Part shown: piece by piece, positions 54,487 through 59,874 of the stretch | Layout: every line of letters begins with the position of its first letter | Numbering within the stretch: the stretch's first letter is position 1 | From: Acidobacteriaceae bacterium | GTDB lineage: Bacteria > Acidobacteriota > Terriglobia > Terriglobales > Acidobacteriaceae | Direction: 5' to 3' | NCBI GenBank assembly: GCA_025462735.1 | Contig: JAOAPC010000015.1 | Location: forward strand, 112,065 to 176,064 | DNA length: 64,000 bases | Made by a program: the position numbers and the translations under genes | Notes under the pieces: generated by a model | The model's database searches: none | What the model saw: only the letters and a program-made list of their open reading frames with translations | What the model was told of the DNA's origin: nothing

Positions 54487-55014
54487 CTACAGTAGCGGCT
54501 TCAGCGCCGATTCAAAGTTGTCTGTGTACTCAAATCCAATAACCTTCTTGCGAAGGATTCCCTGGCGGTCGTAAATCATTGTGGTCGGCAATCCTTCGAT
54601 GCCGCCAAACTTTTGAACAAGATCGGCGGATGCAACCGCCAGCGGGTAATGCACCCCGATCTCCTTTGCAAATCGAATTGGATCTTCCGTGTCCGTCATG
54701 ATCTCCGATTTAAGTCCCACCACGGCAAATCCCCGCGAGCCATACTGATCCAGGAGCTTCTGATAACCCGGCATCTCTTTCTTGCATGGCTGGCACCACG
54801 TTGCCCAAATATCAATGAGCACTACTTTGCCTCGGAGGCCGGCTGAGGAGACCTCGTTTCCTTGCAGGTCCTTCAAAGCGAAATCCGGCAGATGCGAACC
54901 AATCTCGCCCGCCTGAACTATAGCTCGTGGCTGATTAAGACTCGCCGGATTCTGATTGCATCCGGCGAGTCCGCCAGCAACAACAACAACAAGCAACAGA
55001 CATTTCCCGTTCAT
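54487..55014 (-). CDS. TlpA/ResA-type thiol-disulfide lipoprotein
   Basis: The signal ends in lipobox LAGC (Cys19), so it is membrane-anchored. The thioredoxin fold has the active site ATWCQPCKKEMPGYQ and cis-Pro loop EGLPTTMIYD; LPDFALKDLQGNEVS is the typical TlpA start. It would reduce or exchange disulfides in the periplasm. It lies immediately after the HMA gene (stop codon at 55015-55017) and is probably translated from the same mRNA, which fits a redox partner for the Sec- or Cys-containing HMA protein. Confidence 0.92.
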   Translation of the reverse strand: MNGKCLLLVVVVAGGLAGCNQNPASLNQPRAIVQAGEIGSHLPDFALKDLQGNEVSSAGLRGKVVLIDIWATWCQPCKKEMPGYQKLLDQYGSRGFAVVGLKSEIMTDTEDPIRFAKEIGVHYPLAVASADLVQKFGGIEGLPTTMIYDRQGILRKKVIGFEYTDNFESALKPLL

Positions 55015-55539
55015 TTATTCCTTCTTCTGTATTTCAAGCACCACAAGCTTCAGCGGCACTGAAGTATCCGCTTTCTTTTTTCCAGCGGGCTTCTTGTACA
55101 ACTGACCACGCAAGGTGACCGCCGTCGCCGAATTCACGAGCGGTTCCAGGGTCTTTGATAATTCATTTGGAGCAATCGTGAAGGATTGGTTGGGTTCGGC
55201 TTGCAAGGCCAAATTGCCGGACGCATCCTTTACGATTTTTCCCCGGACCGTCATGTCCAATTCCGCTACGCTGACACCACTGTCGTATGTCGCCTTTAGA
55301 AGTTGGGCCGGATCAATGCGCCCATCTTCCTTTGGTGTGACATCGACTTTTCCGTCACGCAAACTCACTTCTACATTTTGAACGCCAGCCTGGCGCCCGA
55401 GGTGCTGTTTCACCCCGTAGGCTCAAAAGTTTCATGTCATGCCTTCGACGCGCATTTCGACGTGCTTGATCTCCGCCTGTGACTGAGGCACCAGCGGCGA
55501 AACAAACAGCAGCAATAGCGCGAGGTGTTTCGTGTTCAT
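55015..55539 (-). CDS. Exported HMA-domain protein with two in-frame TGA codons: candidate UxxU selenoprotein
   Basis: One frame runs from ATG 55539 to 55015 if two TGA codons are read through. Signal peptide (LALLLLFVSPLVPQSQA), then IKHVEMRVEGMT, TGA (55434-55432, residue 36), Asn-Phe, TGA (55425-55423, residue 39), AYGVKQHLGRQAGVQNVEVS. Heavy-metal-associated domains have GMTCxxC here, so both TGAs sit exactly on the metal-binding cysteines. No other stop or shift occurs in 174 codons and no Cys remains. An AAGGAGG lies five bases before the ATG (a second ATG at 55542 is adjacent). The C-terminal 80 residues are not recognised. Alternatives are a double nonsense pseudogene or consensus errors; two precise hits on the two key codons argue against both. 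Confidence 0.8.
55382..55417 (-). promoter_or_regulatory. Candidate bacterial SECIS hairpins after the TGA codons
   Basis: Read on the minus strand: CGGGGUG-AAACAG-CACCUCG at 55417-55398 (7 pairs with one G-U, loop 21 bases after the first UGA), and GCGCC-AGGCU-GGCGU at 55396-55382 (5 pairs, loop 31 bases after the second UGA). Bacterial SECIS elements are small hairpins just 3' of the UGA with little sequence conservation, so either could serve. Folding energies were not computed. Confidence 0.35.
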
Positions 55540-55583
55540 CATTTCCTCCTTTCTAAATTTCGGATCTAAGTTCAGATCTACTG

Positions 55584-56522
55584 TCAAAGATGGATTCGGA
55601 ACTGCTGCGTAATTCCAAAACTGATGTGACGCCGAATCGGCATGAACTGTGCGCCTGTCGAGTGCGCAACAGCCCAATCCGCGCCCAGCCAGACGTGCAT
55701 TCCCGGACGCAGGCCGACGTATGTCGTAATTCCGGCTAGCAGAAGGTCGCCGCCACTTCCACTCTGCGTAATGCCAGCCACGCGATCGTCCTGCGAGTGC
55801 GTCCAGGTCAACACTGGGCCGATAAACCATTCCCGCGCCACGTTCTTCGATTCATAAGGTCGGTAGGACAACCAGAAACGCGACTCGATATCGCTGCCGA
55901 GCTTGGTCTTCTGTGTTCCCTGCGAGCGCAAAAGCGCATGGAAGTCCTCATCTGCAACCAAACGCCGCAGATTGAAGAGCCCCGTGTAAGTCCAGTTTGC
56001 CGCGACGAATAGGTCGGTTGATCCTGAGCCCGGTTGCAAACTGGCCGGAAGCAAATTGTCGTTCGCGTCAACCAGACTTGTGCGTCCGGTCGGCAATTTA
56101 GGGCCGATAGTGAAAGACGTCTGCGTTGTTCCTCGCGCGGAGTCTCGACGATAGAAGCGGTACTTGACCAGCACCATTCCATCGCCAAGGCCGGTCCCTC
56201 GAATTGCCGGCGCGCCGCGCATTTCAAACTGATTCGTGACTATTGGGAACAGAATCGTCAAATCAAAATCGTGGTAAAAGCCCCAGGTGAAATCGAAATC
56301 GCCCTCATGCGCGAACGTAGGCCGTGCGGTCACTGGAATGTTTCCAGACAAGGCTTGCGTCAGACCGCGCGTAGCAAAGATCGAGTTATAAGAGACGAGC
56401 CCACCTCCGGGAAAGAGCGGTGGCGCGGTTTCGGGCGCTGGCCCCTGCGCACTCGCCTTCGCAACCATTAGTGCAATAACTAATGCCAAAGATATCGATT
56501 TCGATATTCGAACCAGACCCAA
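55584..56522 (-). CDS. Outer-membrane channel-like protein (Phenol_MetA_deg-type transporter family)
   Basis: Start chosen as TTG 56522 because GAGGAG lies five bases upstream and a signal peptide follows directly (SISLALVIALMVAKASAQ); the longer frame runs back through a repeat. The mature 290 residues are amphipathic beta strands rich in aromatic ends (DFDFTWGFYHDFDLTILFPIV, FVAANWTYTGLFN, SRFWLSYRPYE, YVGLRPGMHVWLGADWAVA) and end with FRIHL, fitting an outer-membrane barrel. It precedes the HMA gene by 44 bases on the same strand. A role in metal or phenolic efflux is only a guess. Confidence 0.75.
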   Translation of the reverse strand: MGLVRISKSISLALVIALMVAKASAQGPAPETAPPLFPGGGLVSYNSIFATRGLTQALSGNIPVTARPTFAHEGDFDFTWGFYHDFDLTILFPIVTNQFEMRGAPAIRGTGLGDGMVLVKYRFYRRDSARGTTQTSFTIGPKLPTGRTSLVDANDNLLPASLQPGSGSTDLFVAANWTYTGLFNLRRLVADEDFHALLRSQGTQKTKLGSDIESRFWLSYRPYESKNVAREWFIGPVLTWTHSQDDRVAGITQSGSGGDLLLAGITTYVGLRPGMHVWLGADWAVAHSTGAQFMPIRRHISFGITQQFRIHL

Positions 56523-56571
56523 TACACTCCTCACAGTTGTCCTCCACCGAGCCGCGAGCACAGCACAGCTC

Positions 56572-56598
56572 TTGTGGGTCGGACATTCCTGTCCGACA
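56572..56598. repeat. GTCGGACATTCCTGTCCGAC repeat
   Basis: Copy with flanks TTGTGG and ACAC, between the channel-like gene and the Cys/His-rich gene. Confidence 0.9.
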
Positions 56599-56688
56599 CC
56601 TTTGACTTGCTTTTGTCCCAATTTAAGAACGATTGCCGGACGGTGGAGCACACGCATCCGGAAGCGGGTATCCGAACTGGAGTGAAAG

Positions 56689-57039
56689 CTAAATTCGCAG
56701 AGCTAGTAGAGGCGGGGAGAAAATTCCTGGTGGCGCGTGAGAGTGCGGGGCCGGGGTAGCTGCGGAAGCTTCCAAATCGCTAGAGCAATTCAAGATTGCA
56801 AGTACCCCGACCACGGAGGGCGAGGAAGAAACGCTTGGCGCAGACGAGGGCTGGCCAAGCGCAACACGCGCGCTGGGCATTGTCTTGCAACAATCCATCC
56901 CATGATGGGCATGCGAGGAGCACTGCATGGAATGGCAGCATTGCATTGCCTGTTGCGGGGTCGCAGCAACGCAATCGACCGCATATGCTGCGAGAGCAAT
57001 TGTCAGCGCCGCTACAATACCTGGTCTTGCAAACCGCAT
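56689..57039 (-). CDS. Exported Cys/His-rich small protein
   Basis: Signal peptide (GIVAALTIALAAYAVDCVAA) then MQCCHSMQCSSHAHHGMDCC, a dense Cys/His/Met cluster likely to bind soft metals such as Cu, Hg or Ag. One more hydrophobic segment (VSSSPSVVGVLAILNCSS) and a His-containing tail (PHSHAPPG) follow. It is upstream of and co-oriented with the channel, HMA and TlpA genes. Not assignable to a named family. Confidence 0.7.
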   Translation of the reverse strand: MRFARPGIVAALTIALAAYAVDCVAATPQQAMQCCHSMQCSSHAHHGMDCCKTMPSARVALGQPSSAPSVSSSPSVVGVLAILNCSSDLEASAATPAPHSHAPPGIFSPPLLALRI

Positions 57040-57890: not shown

Positions 57891-58427
57891 AGTATTGAGT
57901 GGTCGTCCCGCAATCAGTCGCGATGGGGGCTGGTCCGTCGCGCCGGCCTTTGATGTTGGTGCGAATGGAAGAAAGCTGAGATTGTTAACGACTCTGGTTC
58001 CTGACTAAAAGAGGAGTTCCACTTCGCCTATGGTTTTGGGTCATATGCTTCGCGGCGGCGCACCGAGATCTAGGTGAAATGCCGTTTCTGTCCCACCGGA
58101 TAACTAGTTTGGTTCAACGGGCCGGCTGAAACAGCGACGCGAAACTTTCATTTTGCACCCGGAGTCATTTCCCGTTTCGATAGTCAGGGCTAGATCTACG
58201 CAAAGGCGCCAGTCCCGCAGGGACGATAGATAACTAGCCCAGGACGTAAGTCCTGGGTAGCGGATGAAGTTGATTTAACCGCGAGGCTCTGCCGAGCGAA
58301 ACCTGAGATGTTTTCAGTTAATTCATGCGGGATAGATACTGCCGTTCGAATATTCCCGCGTTCATCAGCTAGTTATCTTAATCGTCCCTGCGGGACTGGG
58401 TTGCCGGAGTACGAAGCCGCGGCCAAT
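57891..58427. other. 537-base gene-free region with a long-range inverted repeat
   Basis: CCAGTCCCGCAGGGACGATA...GATAACTAG at 58209-58237 recurs inverted at 58369-58399. The left copy is followed by the hairpin CCCAGGAC-GTAA-GTCCTGGG (58238-58257). No gene is supported; the start of the space also lacks a clear terminator. Confidence 0.75.
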
Positions 58428-58931
58428 CTATTGTCTTCCGATCTTGTCGATTTCTTTTTTCAACGCCAGCTTGTCAATGGACGTAACTGGCAGCGAGAGA
58501 AACAGACTGATCCGTCGATCAAGTATCGTGAACGCTTCCCGAAAAGCGCGCTCCACTTCTTGGGGAGATCCCTTGAAGGCGGCCGGATCAGGAACGCCCC
58601 AGTGCGCCGTCATCGGTTGCCCAGGCCAGATCGGGCAAACTTCGTTTGCCGCGTTGTCGCAGACGGTAAAAATAAAATCGAGCTTGGGTGCGCCCGGCTT
58701 CGAGAATTCATCCCAACTCTTGCTGCGCAAATCGTGCCTCGACATTCGGCTCGCCTCCAACCGCGCAATAGCTTCAGGCCTGACCGCTCCTGAAGGATGA
58801 CTTCCAGCGCTATAAGCCGTAAATCTCGGCTTGCCCTTGAAGTTCAGGATCGCCTCGGCCATGATCGAGCGCGCCGAATTTCCGGTGCACAGGAACAAAA
58901 CGTTGTAGTGAGGAGATTCGGCAGTTGGCAT
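58428..58931 (-). CDS. arsC: Arsenate reductase, thioredoxin-coupled type
   Basis: Low-molecular-weight phosphatase fold with the P-loop LFLCTGNSARS (Cys15, Arg21) and two further cysteines at 91 and 99 (VCDNAANEVCP), the three-Cys relay of thioredoxin-linked ArsC. It reduces As(V) to As(III) in the cytosol. It is the third gene of the arsR-arsM-arsC set; a 91-base spacer with repeats separates it from arsM. No arsenite efflux gene is adjacent. Confidence 0.93.
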   Translation of the reverse strand: MPTAESPHYNVLFLCTGNSARSIMAEAILNFKGKPRFTAYSAGSHPSGAVRPEAIARLEASRMSRHDLRSKSWDEFSKPGAPKLDFIFTVCDNAANEVCPIWPGQPMTAHWGVPDPAAFKGSPQEVERAFREAFTILDRRISLFLSLPVTSIDKLALKKEIDKIGRQ

Positions 58932-59022: not shown

Positions 59023-59874
59023 TTAATTGCAGCACGTAGGCCCGCAACAACTTTTCTCAGCTGGCTTGATCGCCCGCACAAACACGCTCATGATTTTCCC
59101 ATCGAGCTGTGGCGCGATCGCGTCCACATCAACTCCCGCCGAAGACAGAAACTCGCGTGCATCTTCCACGCGGTAAACGCGCGTGGGTTCGATCGTGACC
59201 TCGCCAAATCCAGCGCCCGTCAGCTTAGCGCGATAGTCTTTCTCATCCAGCGCTCCGGCCACGCAACCCACCCACAAAAGCACACTCTTCCGGATCTCAT
59301 CAGTGATGTCGCCGCGAGTGACGACGTCTGACACAGCGAACCGGCCGCCGGGCTTGAGCACGCGAAACGCCTCGCGCAACACGCGGTCCTTGTCCGCAGA
59401 AAGATTGATCACGCAATTGGAAATGATGACGTCAACGGAATCGTCCGGCAGTGGAATATTTTCGATCTCGCCTTTCAGGAACTCCACATTTTCCGCGCTA
59501 GCTTTACGCTTGTTCTCATTCGCCAGCGCGAGCATCTCGTCGGTCATGTCGAGACCGTAAGCTTTGCCCGTTGGCCCAACTCGCTTAGCAGAAAGCAACA
59601 CATCGATTCCGCCGCCCGAGCCCAAGTCGAGGACGACCTCTCCTGGATTCAGCTGCGCGAGCGCCGTCGGATTGCCGCAGCCCAGGGACGCCAGCACCGC
59701 TTCTTCGGGAAGCGCTCCGGTCTGTGCCGCATCATAAAGATTCGAAGTAATTGGATCGCAACCCAGCGCGCTCGCCGCAGTGGCTCCACAGCAACTGCTG
59801 CCGCCTTGATTTACGCGCAGTGCTGCCTGTCCGTATTTTTCCTTTACGATTTCCCTTACGTCAGTGCTGTTCAT
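59023..59874 (-). CDS. arsM: Arsenite S-adenosylmethionine methyltransferase
   Basis: SAM-binding motif [20 protein letters not shown], then [25 protein letters not shown]. The conserved As(III)-binding cysteines are in SNCVINL and WVGCVAGAL, and GSSCCGA precedes them; the C-terminus has an extra CCGPTCC. ArsM converts As(III) to methylated arsenicals in the cytosol. In this set ArsM rather than an efflux pump seems to be the detoxification route. Confidence 0.93.

Follow-up and report, generated by a model that had tools for sequence, protein, structure and literature searches.

Can a bacterial heavy-metal-associated (HMA) protein be made with selenocysteine (Sec) at both of its metal-ligand positions, and how would the ribosome decode two UGA codons only nine nucleotides apart? 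These questions are raised by a gene in the window, the whole 64,000-nt stretch of Acidobacteriaceae DNA analysed here, whose HMA-type metal loop carries TGA at both cysteine codons (a UxxU motif, U being Sec). Our comparative, structural and RNA-folding results make it likely that this gene encodes a periplasmic metal binder with an HMA fold and Sec at residues 36 and 39 (U36 and U39), and that a conserved RNA element of two adjacent predicted hairpins, H1 and H2, directs both insertions.

Read with TGA as Sec, the gene lies on the minus strand with its ATG at 55539 and a stop ending at 55015, and comprises 174 codons, MNTK...VEGMT-UGA-NF-UGA-AYGVKQHLG..., with Sec at codons 36 and 39 (UGA-1 and UGA-2) and no further stop; an alternative ATG at 55542 would give one extra Met. 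The original prediction, made without naming a strand, had claimed TGA at both HMA cysteine codons, undisturbed remaining codons, a strong Shine-Dalgarno sequence and a next gene beginning at the stop, and all of this holds: the loop reads GMT-UGA-N-F-UGA-AYGV on the minus strand, AAGGAGG is found 5 nt ahead of the ATG, and the ATG of a TlpA gene at 55014 follows the stop directly. With C substituted for U, the protein passes the Pfam HMA profile PF00403 (35.6 bits against a cut-off of 24.8), and a structure model of the whole protein, with Cys in place of Sec, is confident (predicted local distance difference test, pLDDT, of 87.8), residues 24-95 matching the structures of CopZ and MerP (1osd and 1afi being among the fold matches). 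The C-terminal domain of about 79 residues, modelled alone, gives five strands, the third and fourth separated by one helix (pLDDT 72, weak fold matches), and its modelled strand order resembles, with medium confidence, that of an oligonucleotide/oligosaccharide-binding (OB) fold.

The source genome (4.36 Mb, 97% complete) contains, all above cut-off, selA (543.7 bits, in two pieces of a single frame), selB (374.7 bits), selD and a tRNA-Sec (69.9 bits) whose anticodon is TCA. Its selD carries an in-frame UGA of its own (AGUASK; L115, G000:C18:75659-76648) and is therefore a second candidate selenoprotein gene in this genome, such a selD being a well-known kind of selenoprotein. Regarding homologues, 17 close loci were taken from GTDB genomes recorded as Acidobacteria, Acidobacteriaceae or Sulfotelmatobacter metagenome-assembled genomes (MAGs), and UNFU, with TGA at both positions, was found in 16 of the 16 that hold the motif; the seventeenth, L041, retains the last 41 codons only and stands outside this count. 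Furthermore, an order-wide search at E 1e-20 (397 genomes) returned 11 matches that all carry two TGAs, several of these sequences being shared with the 17-locus set. The codons past the second TGA are under purifying selection: over the 136 pairs of the 17 close genes, codons 40-174 have a mean nonsynonymous divergence (dN) of 0.107 and a mean synonymous divergence (dS) of 1.007, with a dN/dS of 0.106 as ratio of means. Because all motif-holding relatives share both TGAs and the codons downstream are so constrained, the two TGAs are not a product of chance.

Wider samples, consisting of 396 genomes drawn from the phylum and 61 nearer genomes, revealed the variants UNAU, USLU, UPLU, UGLU, UATU, UxxC, CxxU and CxxC. 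Among 53 distinct homologues recognised with a whole-protein model (A6), 32 are UxxU, 8 UxxC, 2 CxxU and 11 CxxC, and all 74 in-frame TGAs sit on the two Cys columns, with none elsewhere; this count covers genes spanning both domains within the fetched loci, which were picked as homologues and include many close kin, and leaves out other matches, such as L058 (cut by a contig end) and the short HMA proteins L103 and L123. Close Cys forms are also on record at the protein level, P0004 and others showing 64-70% identity. The checks proposed along with the original UxxU selenoprotein reading were a search of the same genome for Sec machinery, a search for homologues with Cys at both TGA positions, and folding of the mRNA after the UGAs in search of a hairpin resembling a selenocysteine insertion sequence (SECIS); the machinery genes, the 11 CxxC genes and the hairpins that fold downstream of UGA-2 support that reading.

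Counted from the first nucleotide of UGA-1 (nt 1-3; UGA-2 is then nt 10-12), H1 occupies about nt 18-37 and H2 nt 37-55, and in UxxU genes both are adjacent, at a fixed spacing, downstream of UGA-2. H2 has an invariant core, CGCC-NG[G/U]NN-GGCG, a stem of 6-8 pairs and, in the window gene, a fold energy of -11.3 kcal/mol; its loop lies 32 nt from UGA-2 and 41 nt from UGA-1. The H1 stem varies by lineage with its pairing kept (GGGGUG/CACCUC, GGGGUC/GACCCU, GGGGCC/GGCCCU, GGGAUC/GAUCCC and AGCCU/GGGCU), in runs of 4-9 pairs, the register being 53, 54 or 55 in 5, 11 and 13 of 29 distinct sequences, respectively. No indel occurs in these 29 sequences, which were gathered by a pattern that fixes the spacing and the H2 core, including its G. 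The same spacing was obtained in the 14 best matches of R1, a covariance model built from seven distant loci, leaving out both UGAs and every sequence of the window's group. Among 155 twenty-codon windows of the 17 close genes, synonymous variation is lowest in codons 36-55 (0.20, the mean being 0.39), and codons 36-56 differ from codons 1-30 and 61-174 in this respect with P=0.0004. The 49-nt stretch of the window gene that holds both hairpins has a z of -2.97 relative to dinucleotide shuffles.

Across 12 distant lineages 91% of cells are paired, and covariation is 0.337, compared with 0.173 for shuffles, none of 500 of which attains the observed value, and at most 0.169 when the structure is slid. 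When R1 was run across the 396 genomes, its 14 best matches (at least 34.3 bits) all lay directly 3' of UGA-N6-UGA in HMA genes; eight of them belong to the training set or are exact copies of one of its loci, and six were held out (G131, G026, G128, G019, G314 and the window), of which the first five have HMA genes missing from the matches of the phylum protein search. The window site is the sole R1 match at E 0.01 in the source genome, and none of the 14 lower-scoring matches that could be inspected, which leaves aside two loci cut by contig ends and the matches without loci, follows UGA-N6-UGA. On a set of 53 fetched loci, R1 recovered the 8 training-type and all 16 close UxxU loci at E<=0.001, the next match standing at 0.44. 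In 13 UxxU genes the observed folds were stronger than those of synonymous recodings (Fisher P=1.4e-7 for H1 and 4.7e-13 for H2, with lineages partly dependent). The same procedure showed H2 to be absent from 8 UxxC genes (P=0.99), which have a hairpin of their own at the H1 place (P=0.008), and neither hairpin stood out in 9 CxxC genes as a set (H1 0.42, H2 0.23). Nine UxxC relatives carry instead one ordinary hairpin whose loop lies 17 nt past the UGA (CCACGC-CGUGC-GCGUGG, CCUGGC-CGUG[C/A]-GCCAGG or close variants); in the folding comparison, a single classical hairpin was not seen in the UxxC gene GLAUPFC (L100) or in the two CxxU genes. A sister group with the motif GMDUxxC (L055, L063, L068, L073, L074, L075 and L110) has a single classical hairpin, its loop 17 nt past the UGA, and the short HMA proteins L103 and L123 (GMTUGAC and GMTUGGC) have the same one, with a stem that is changed but still paired.

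As to how two UGAs could be decoded, we propose that H2, through its G[G/U] loop, would recruit SelB for both. H1 starts 14 nt downstream of UGA-1 and 5 nt downstream of UGA-2, and a distance of 14 nt past the codon in the ribosomal A site corresponds approximately to the ribosome mouth; H1 could remain folded while UGA-1 is in the A site. Folding would take out about 20 nt and bring the H2 loop to about 21 nt from UGA-1. With the ribosome advanced to UGA-2, H1 would be opened by it, and H2 would then act over its linear distance, so that a single SelB site could be used by the two codons one after the other. We put forward tentatively, as an arrangement that is possible and somewhat short of probable, that one SelB-binding hairpin and one spacer hairpin, folded at UGA-1 and opened at UGA-2, form a phylum-wide two-hairpin SECIS decoding UGAs nine nucleotides apart. 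If true, this would be a recoding signal with a moving part made for UxxU selenoproteins, here building a double-selenolate metal clamp, and the element offers a direct handle on how bacteria decode two closely spaced UGAs. Another arrangement, which we regard as unlikely but credible, assigns one SECIS to each UGA, H1 serving UGA-1 and H2 serving UGA-2, each bound by SelB. The positions agree with it, as the H1 loop lies about 21 nt from UGA-1, near the 17 nt of the single hairpin that the nine UxxC relatives have in almost the same place, and the H2 loop lies at 32 nt from UGA-2; the conservation argues the other way, the G[G/U] of H2 being kept in 29 of the 29 pattern-collected sequences (the pattern itself holding that G) and in the 14 best matches of R1.

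Several observations weigh against a UxxU metal binder decoded through a two-hairpin element. UGA-1, at 41 nt, falls outside the published SECIS spacing unless H1 folds, and the pairing register of H1 moves by one or two. The window fold begun at UGA-1 has a z of -1.59 against dinucleotide shuffles; the count of pairs with two-sided changes was equalled by 62 of 500 shuffles, and that of pair types by 36 of 500. H1 alone gave P>0.1 in 5 of the 13 UxxU genes (L099, L104, L130, L134 and L139), and the 9 CxxC genes as a set also beat their recodings across the whole region (P=0.008), L046 and L054 having a low whole-region P individually. All 17 close relatives are MAGs. Moreover, SelB was found in 11 of 14 UxxU genomes, which represents no enrichment because it is widespread in the phylum, being present in 254 of 396 genomes. 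G110 (95% complete) has a UxxU gene and both hairpins with no SelB above cut-off (a short contig-end piece reads as EF-Tu, and the best other match reaches 179.7 bits), and its tRNA-Sec match is marginal (49.2 bits against a cut-off of 47). In G290 and G266 (65% and 72% complete) partial SelB pieces only and no tRNA-Sec at 1e-8 were found, and G396, of the same genus as the source (85% complete), has SelB and no tRNA-Sec match at 1e-8.

Features of the HMA locus, with their positions in the window and the basis of each assignment
Feature	Position	Strand	Basis
HMA gene with two in-frame UGA codons (UxxU), 174 aa, predicted U36 and U39	55015..55539	-	open reading frame read with TGA as U; homologues
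UGA-1, codon 36, predicted Sec, first metal-ligand position	55432..55434	-	reading frame and homologue alignment
UGA-2, codon 39, predicted Sec, second metal-ligand position	55423..55425	-	reading frame and homologue alignment
Shine-Dalgarno sequence AAGGAGG, 5 nt upstream of ATG	55545..55551	-	
Signal-peptide-like N-terminal segment, residues 1-22	55474..55539	-	by-eye judgement of sequence
HMA domain, residues 24-95, CopZ/MerP-like fold	55255..55470	-	Pfam profile and structure model
C-terminal five-stranded domain, residues 96-174, OB-fold-like	55018..55254	-	medium-confidence structure model
Hairpin H1, CGGGGUG-AAACAG-CACCUCG, stem covaries, loop not conserved; predicted spacer	55398..55417	-	folding, covariation
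Hairpin H2, core CGCC-AGGCU-GGCG, predicted SelB-binding SECIS; apical GG at 55390-55389	55380..55398	-	folding, model R1
TlpA/ResA-like thioredoxin, begins directly past the HMA stop	54487..55014	-	profile match and locus comparison
Putative outer-membrane channel, no Pfam match of its own	55584..56657	-	sequence similarity to channels of distant loci
Small Cys/His-rich protein, signal-like start, no family match	56689..57039	-	family scan and locus comparison

The neighbours initially proposed for the HMA gene, a TlpA thioredoxin, a Cys/His-rich protein and an outer-membrane channel, proved real and conserved. The TlpA gene lies downstream in 17 of 17 close loci, the channel gene is present in 16 of 17 (it is absent in L041), and the Cys/His-rich gene in 14 of 17, two of the three exceptions being cut by contig ends. 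In distant loci, the channel gene stands beside 13 of 13 UxxU genes (in L134 the gene end only lies within the contig), several CxxC and CxxU forms have it nearby as well, and two of these distant channels that resemble the window channel match Phenol_MetA_deg. TlpA occurs near 5 of the 13 distant UxxU genes and was not found near the other 8, some with short flanks. In a scan of 20 chosen neighbours, MerT was found within 4 kb of 3 of the 13 distant UxxU genes (adjoining in G314, at about 2.7 kb in G110 and about 3.3 kb in G095), zf_CopZ proteins in the same loci (0.4, 1.8 and about 9 kb away, respectively), a MerR regulator about 1.8 kb from the UxxU gene in G095, and a CsoR-type repressor adjoining that of G314. 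These neighbours therefore point to mercury or copper. No MerA above cut-off was found in the source genome. The nearby MerT genes make Hg(II) a plausible ligand, and the HMA protein probably acts as a soft-metal chaperone of the periplasm. Between its two selenolates it would bind a soft metal there, either Hg(II) or Cu(I); the TlpA protein encoded downstream may keep the selenoprotein reduced, and the HMA protein may act together with the outer-membrane channel encoded upstream.

The main alternative on function, which we consider doubtful, is that the protein is a redox partner of TlpA, forming a diselenide or selenenylsulfide, rather than a metal binder. Such a role is consistent with the constant presence of TlpA in the close loci and its occurrence near some of the distant UxxU genes, and with Sec being usual in thiol redox proteins, as stated in PMC13188914. 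Nevertheless, the HMA fold and the metal loop match CopZ and MerP, three distant lineages have MerT and zf_CopZ near the UxxU gene, two of these also a MerR or CsoR-type regulator, and most of the distant UxxU genes showed no TlpA nearby, some having short flanks. All of these argue for the metal binder.

Other observations were made at this and related loci. In L041 (4062-4282) the channel gene and the first 133 HMA codons are missing and the remaining flanks are 98 nt apart, either by deletion or through an assembly error. In the CxxU forms L111 and L119 (GYLCGNU) TGA is confined to the second position, and their loci also gave channel and TlpA matches; in L100 (G377:C87:46117-47587) a UxxC (GLAUPFC) and a CxxC (GLSCPFC) paralogue are neighbours, their starts about 1 kb apart. 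In the window, an ArsC-like gene (58428-58931, minus strand) and an arsenite methyltransferase gene (59023-59874, minus strand; 372 bits to NF008823, above cut-off) lie 1.4-2.8 kb upstream of the Cys/His-rich gene, and in L031 both are within 3 kb of the HMA gene; an Acido-Lenti-1 RNA (RF01687, 49.4 bits) is located at 58211-58257, minus strand, about 170 nt downstream of the ArsC-like gene.

The remaining readings deny that Sec is inserted. It is very improbable that the UGAs are true stops and that the functional protein is the database form of 132 aa with a GTG start, even though pieces of about 132 aa starting past the second TGA constitute the majority of the 120 protein-database matches listed. 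Such a piece is devoid of the signal-like start, the first strand and the metal loop; residues 23-35, ahead of UGA-1, are strongly constrained (dN/dS 0.028, computed as for the downstream codons); and 32 distinct genes have UGA in each of the two Cys columns, together with a conserved RNA element. Given the low dN/dS on both sides of the UGAs, these shorter database proteins have very probably been mis-called; the listed database entries of the family are mostly cut at the second UGA, and R1 finds the gene without the protein. That the organism reads UGA as Trp, as the translation WNFW in 3 of 12 fetched database entries implies, is almost certainly wrong, against it standing the Cys that TGA-free homologues carry there (the 11 CxxC genes) and the TCA anticodon of the genome's tRNA-Sec.

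Returning to the preferred reading, a UxxU metal binder with a two-hairpin element, its two parts can be compared with known systems. The Fig. 2 legend of PMC13188914 describes the bacterial SECIS (bSECIS) as having a small loop, placed 16-37 nt from the UGA, in which G[G/U] comes close to the beginning, and the published bSECIS criteria comprise a G in the first two loop positions, a stem of 4-16 bp and a minimum free energy (MFE) of at most -7.5. H2 fits this consensus in its loop, N1-G[G/U]-N-N2, and in stem and MFE, and its distance agrees for UGA-2 (32 nt) and not for UGA-1 (41 nt); unlike the consensus so described, one element stands here for two UGAs, with an extra covarying hairpin in between. 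No description of a two-hairpin SECIS, or of an acidobacterial HMA family of such build, was found in the portions of the literature searched, which is a weak negative, as these did not cover Zhang and Gladyshev 2007.

Regarding the protein, NF041115 (UxxU_metal_bind) likewise has an HMA-type metal loop with Sec at both positions, and window residues 22-68 match positions 1-47 of its profile; however, the profile is 74 aa long and the window protein, which scores 39.2 against a cut-off of 95, has 174 aa, an OB-like C-terminal domain and a link to the channel and TlpA. NF045683 (MerT_CopZ_Se) shares an HMA-type domain in a selenoprotein and, by name, metal transport (it is MerT/CopZ fusion-like), whereas the window protein has no MerT part and scores 30 against a cut-off of 375. 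MerP (TIGR02052), which is also periplasmic, and CopZ (NF047957) have the HMA fold in common with it and differ in having Cys and no second domain, the window protein scoring 35.6 against 92.55 and 48 against 85, respectively. Since its scores lie under the cut-offs of NF041115, MerP, CopZ and MerT_CopZ_Se, it belongs by these tests to a separate family. Judged by its fold, the window protein would work as a binder of the MerP/CopZ type, and its double-selenolate HMA site would be a natural soft-metal clamp, comparable with MerP and CopZ. A 'putative mercuric reductase' with UxxU is listed in PMC13188914 and PMC9312934, both reviews, the former citing Zhang and Gladyshev 2007. Thus, UxxU selenoproteins of the HMA type are already known in kind (NF041115 and the 'putative mercuric reductase'), and the two-hairpin element is the new part.
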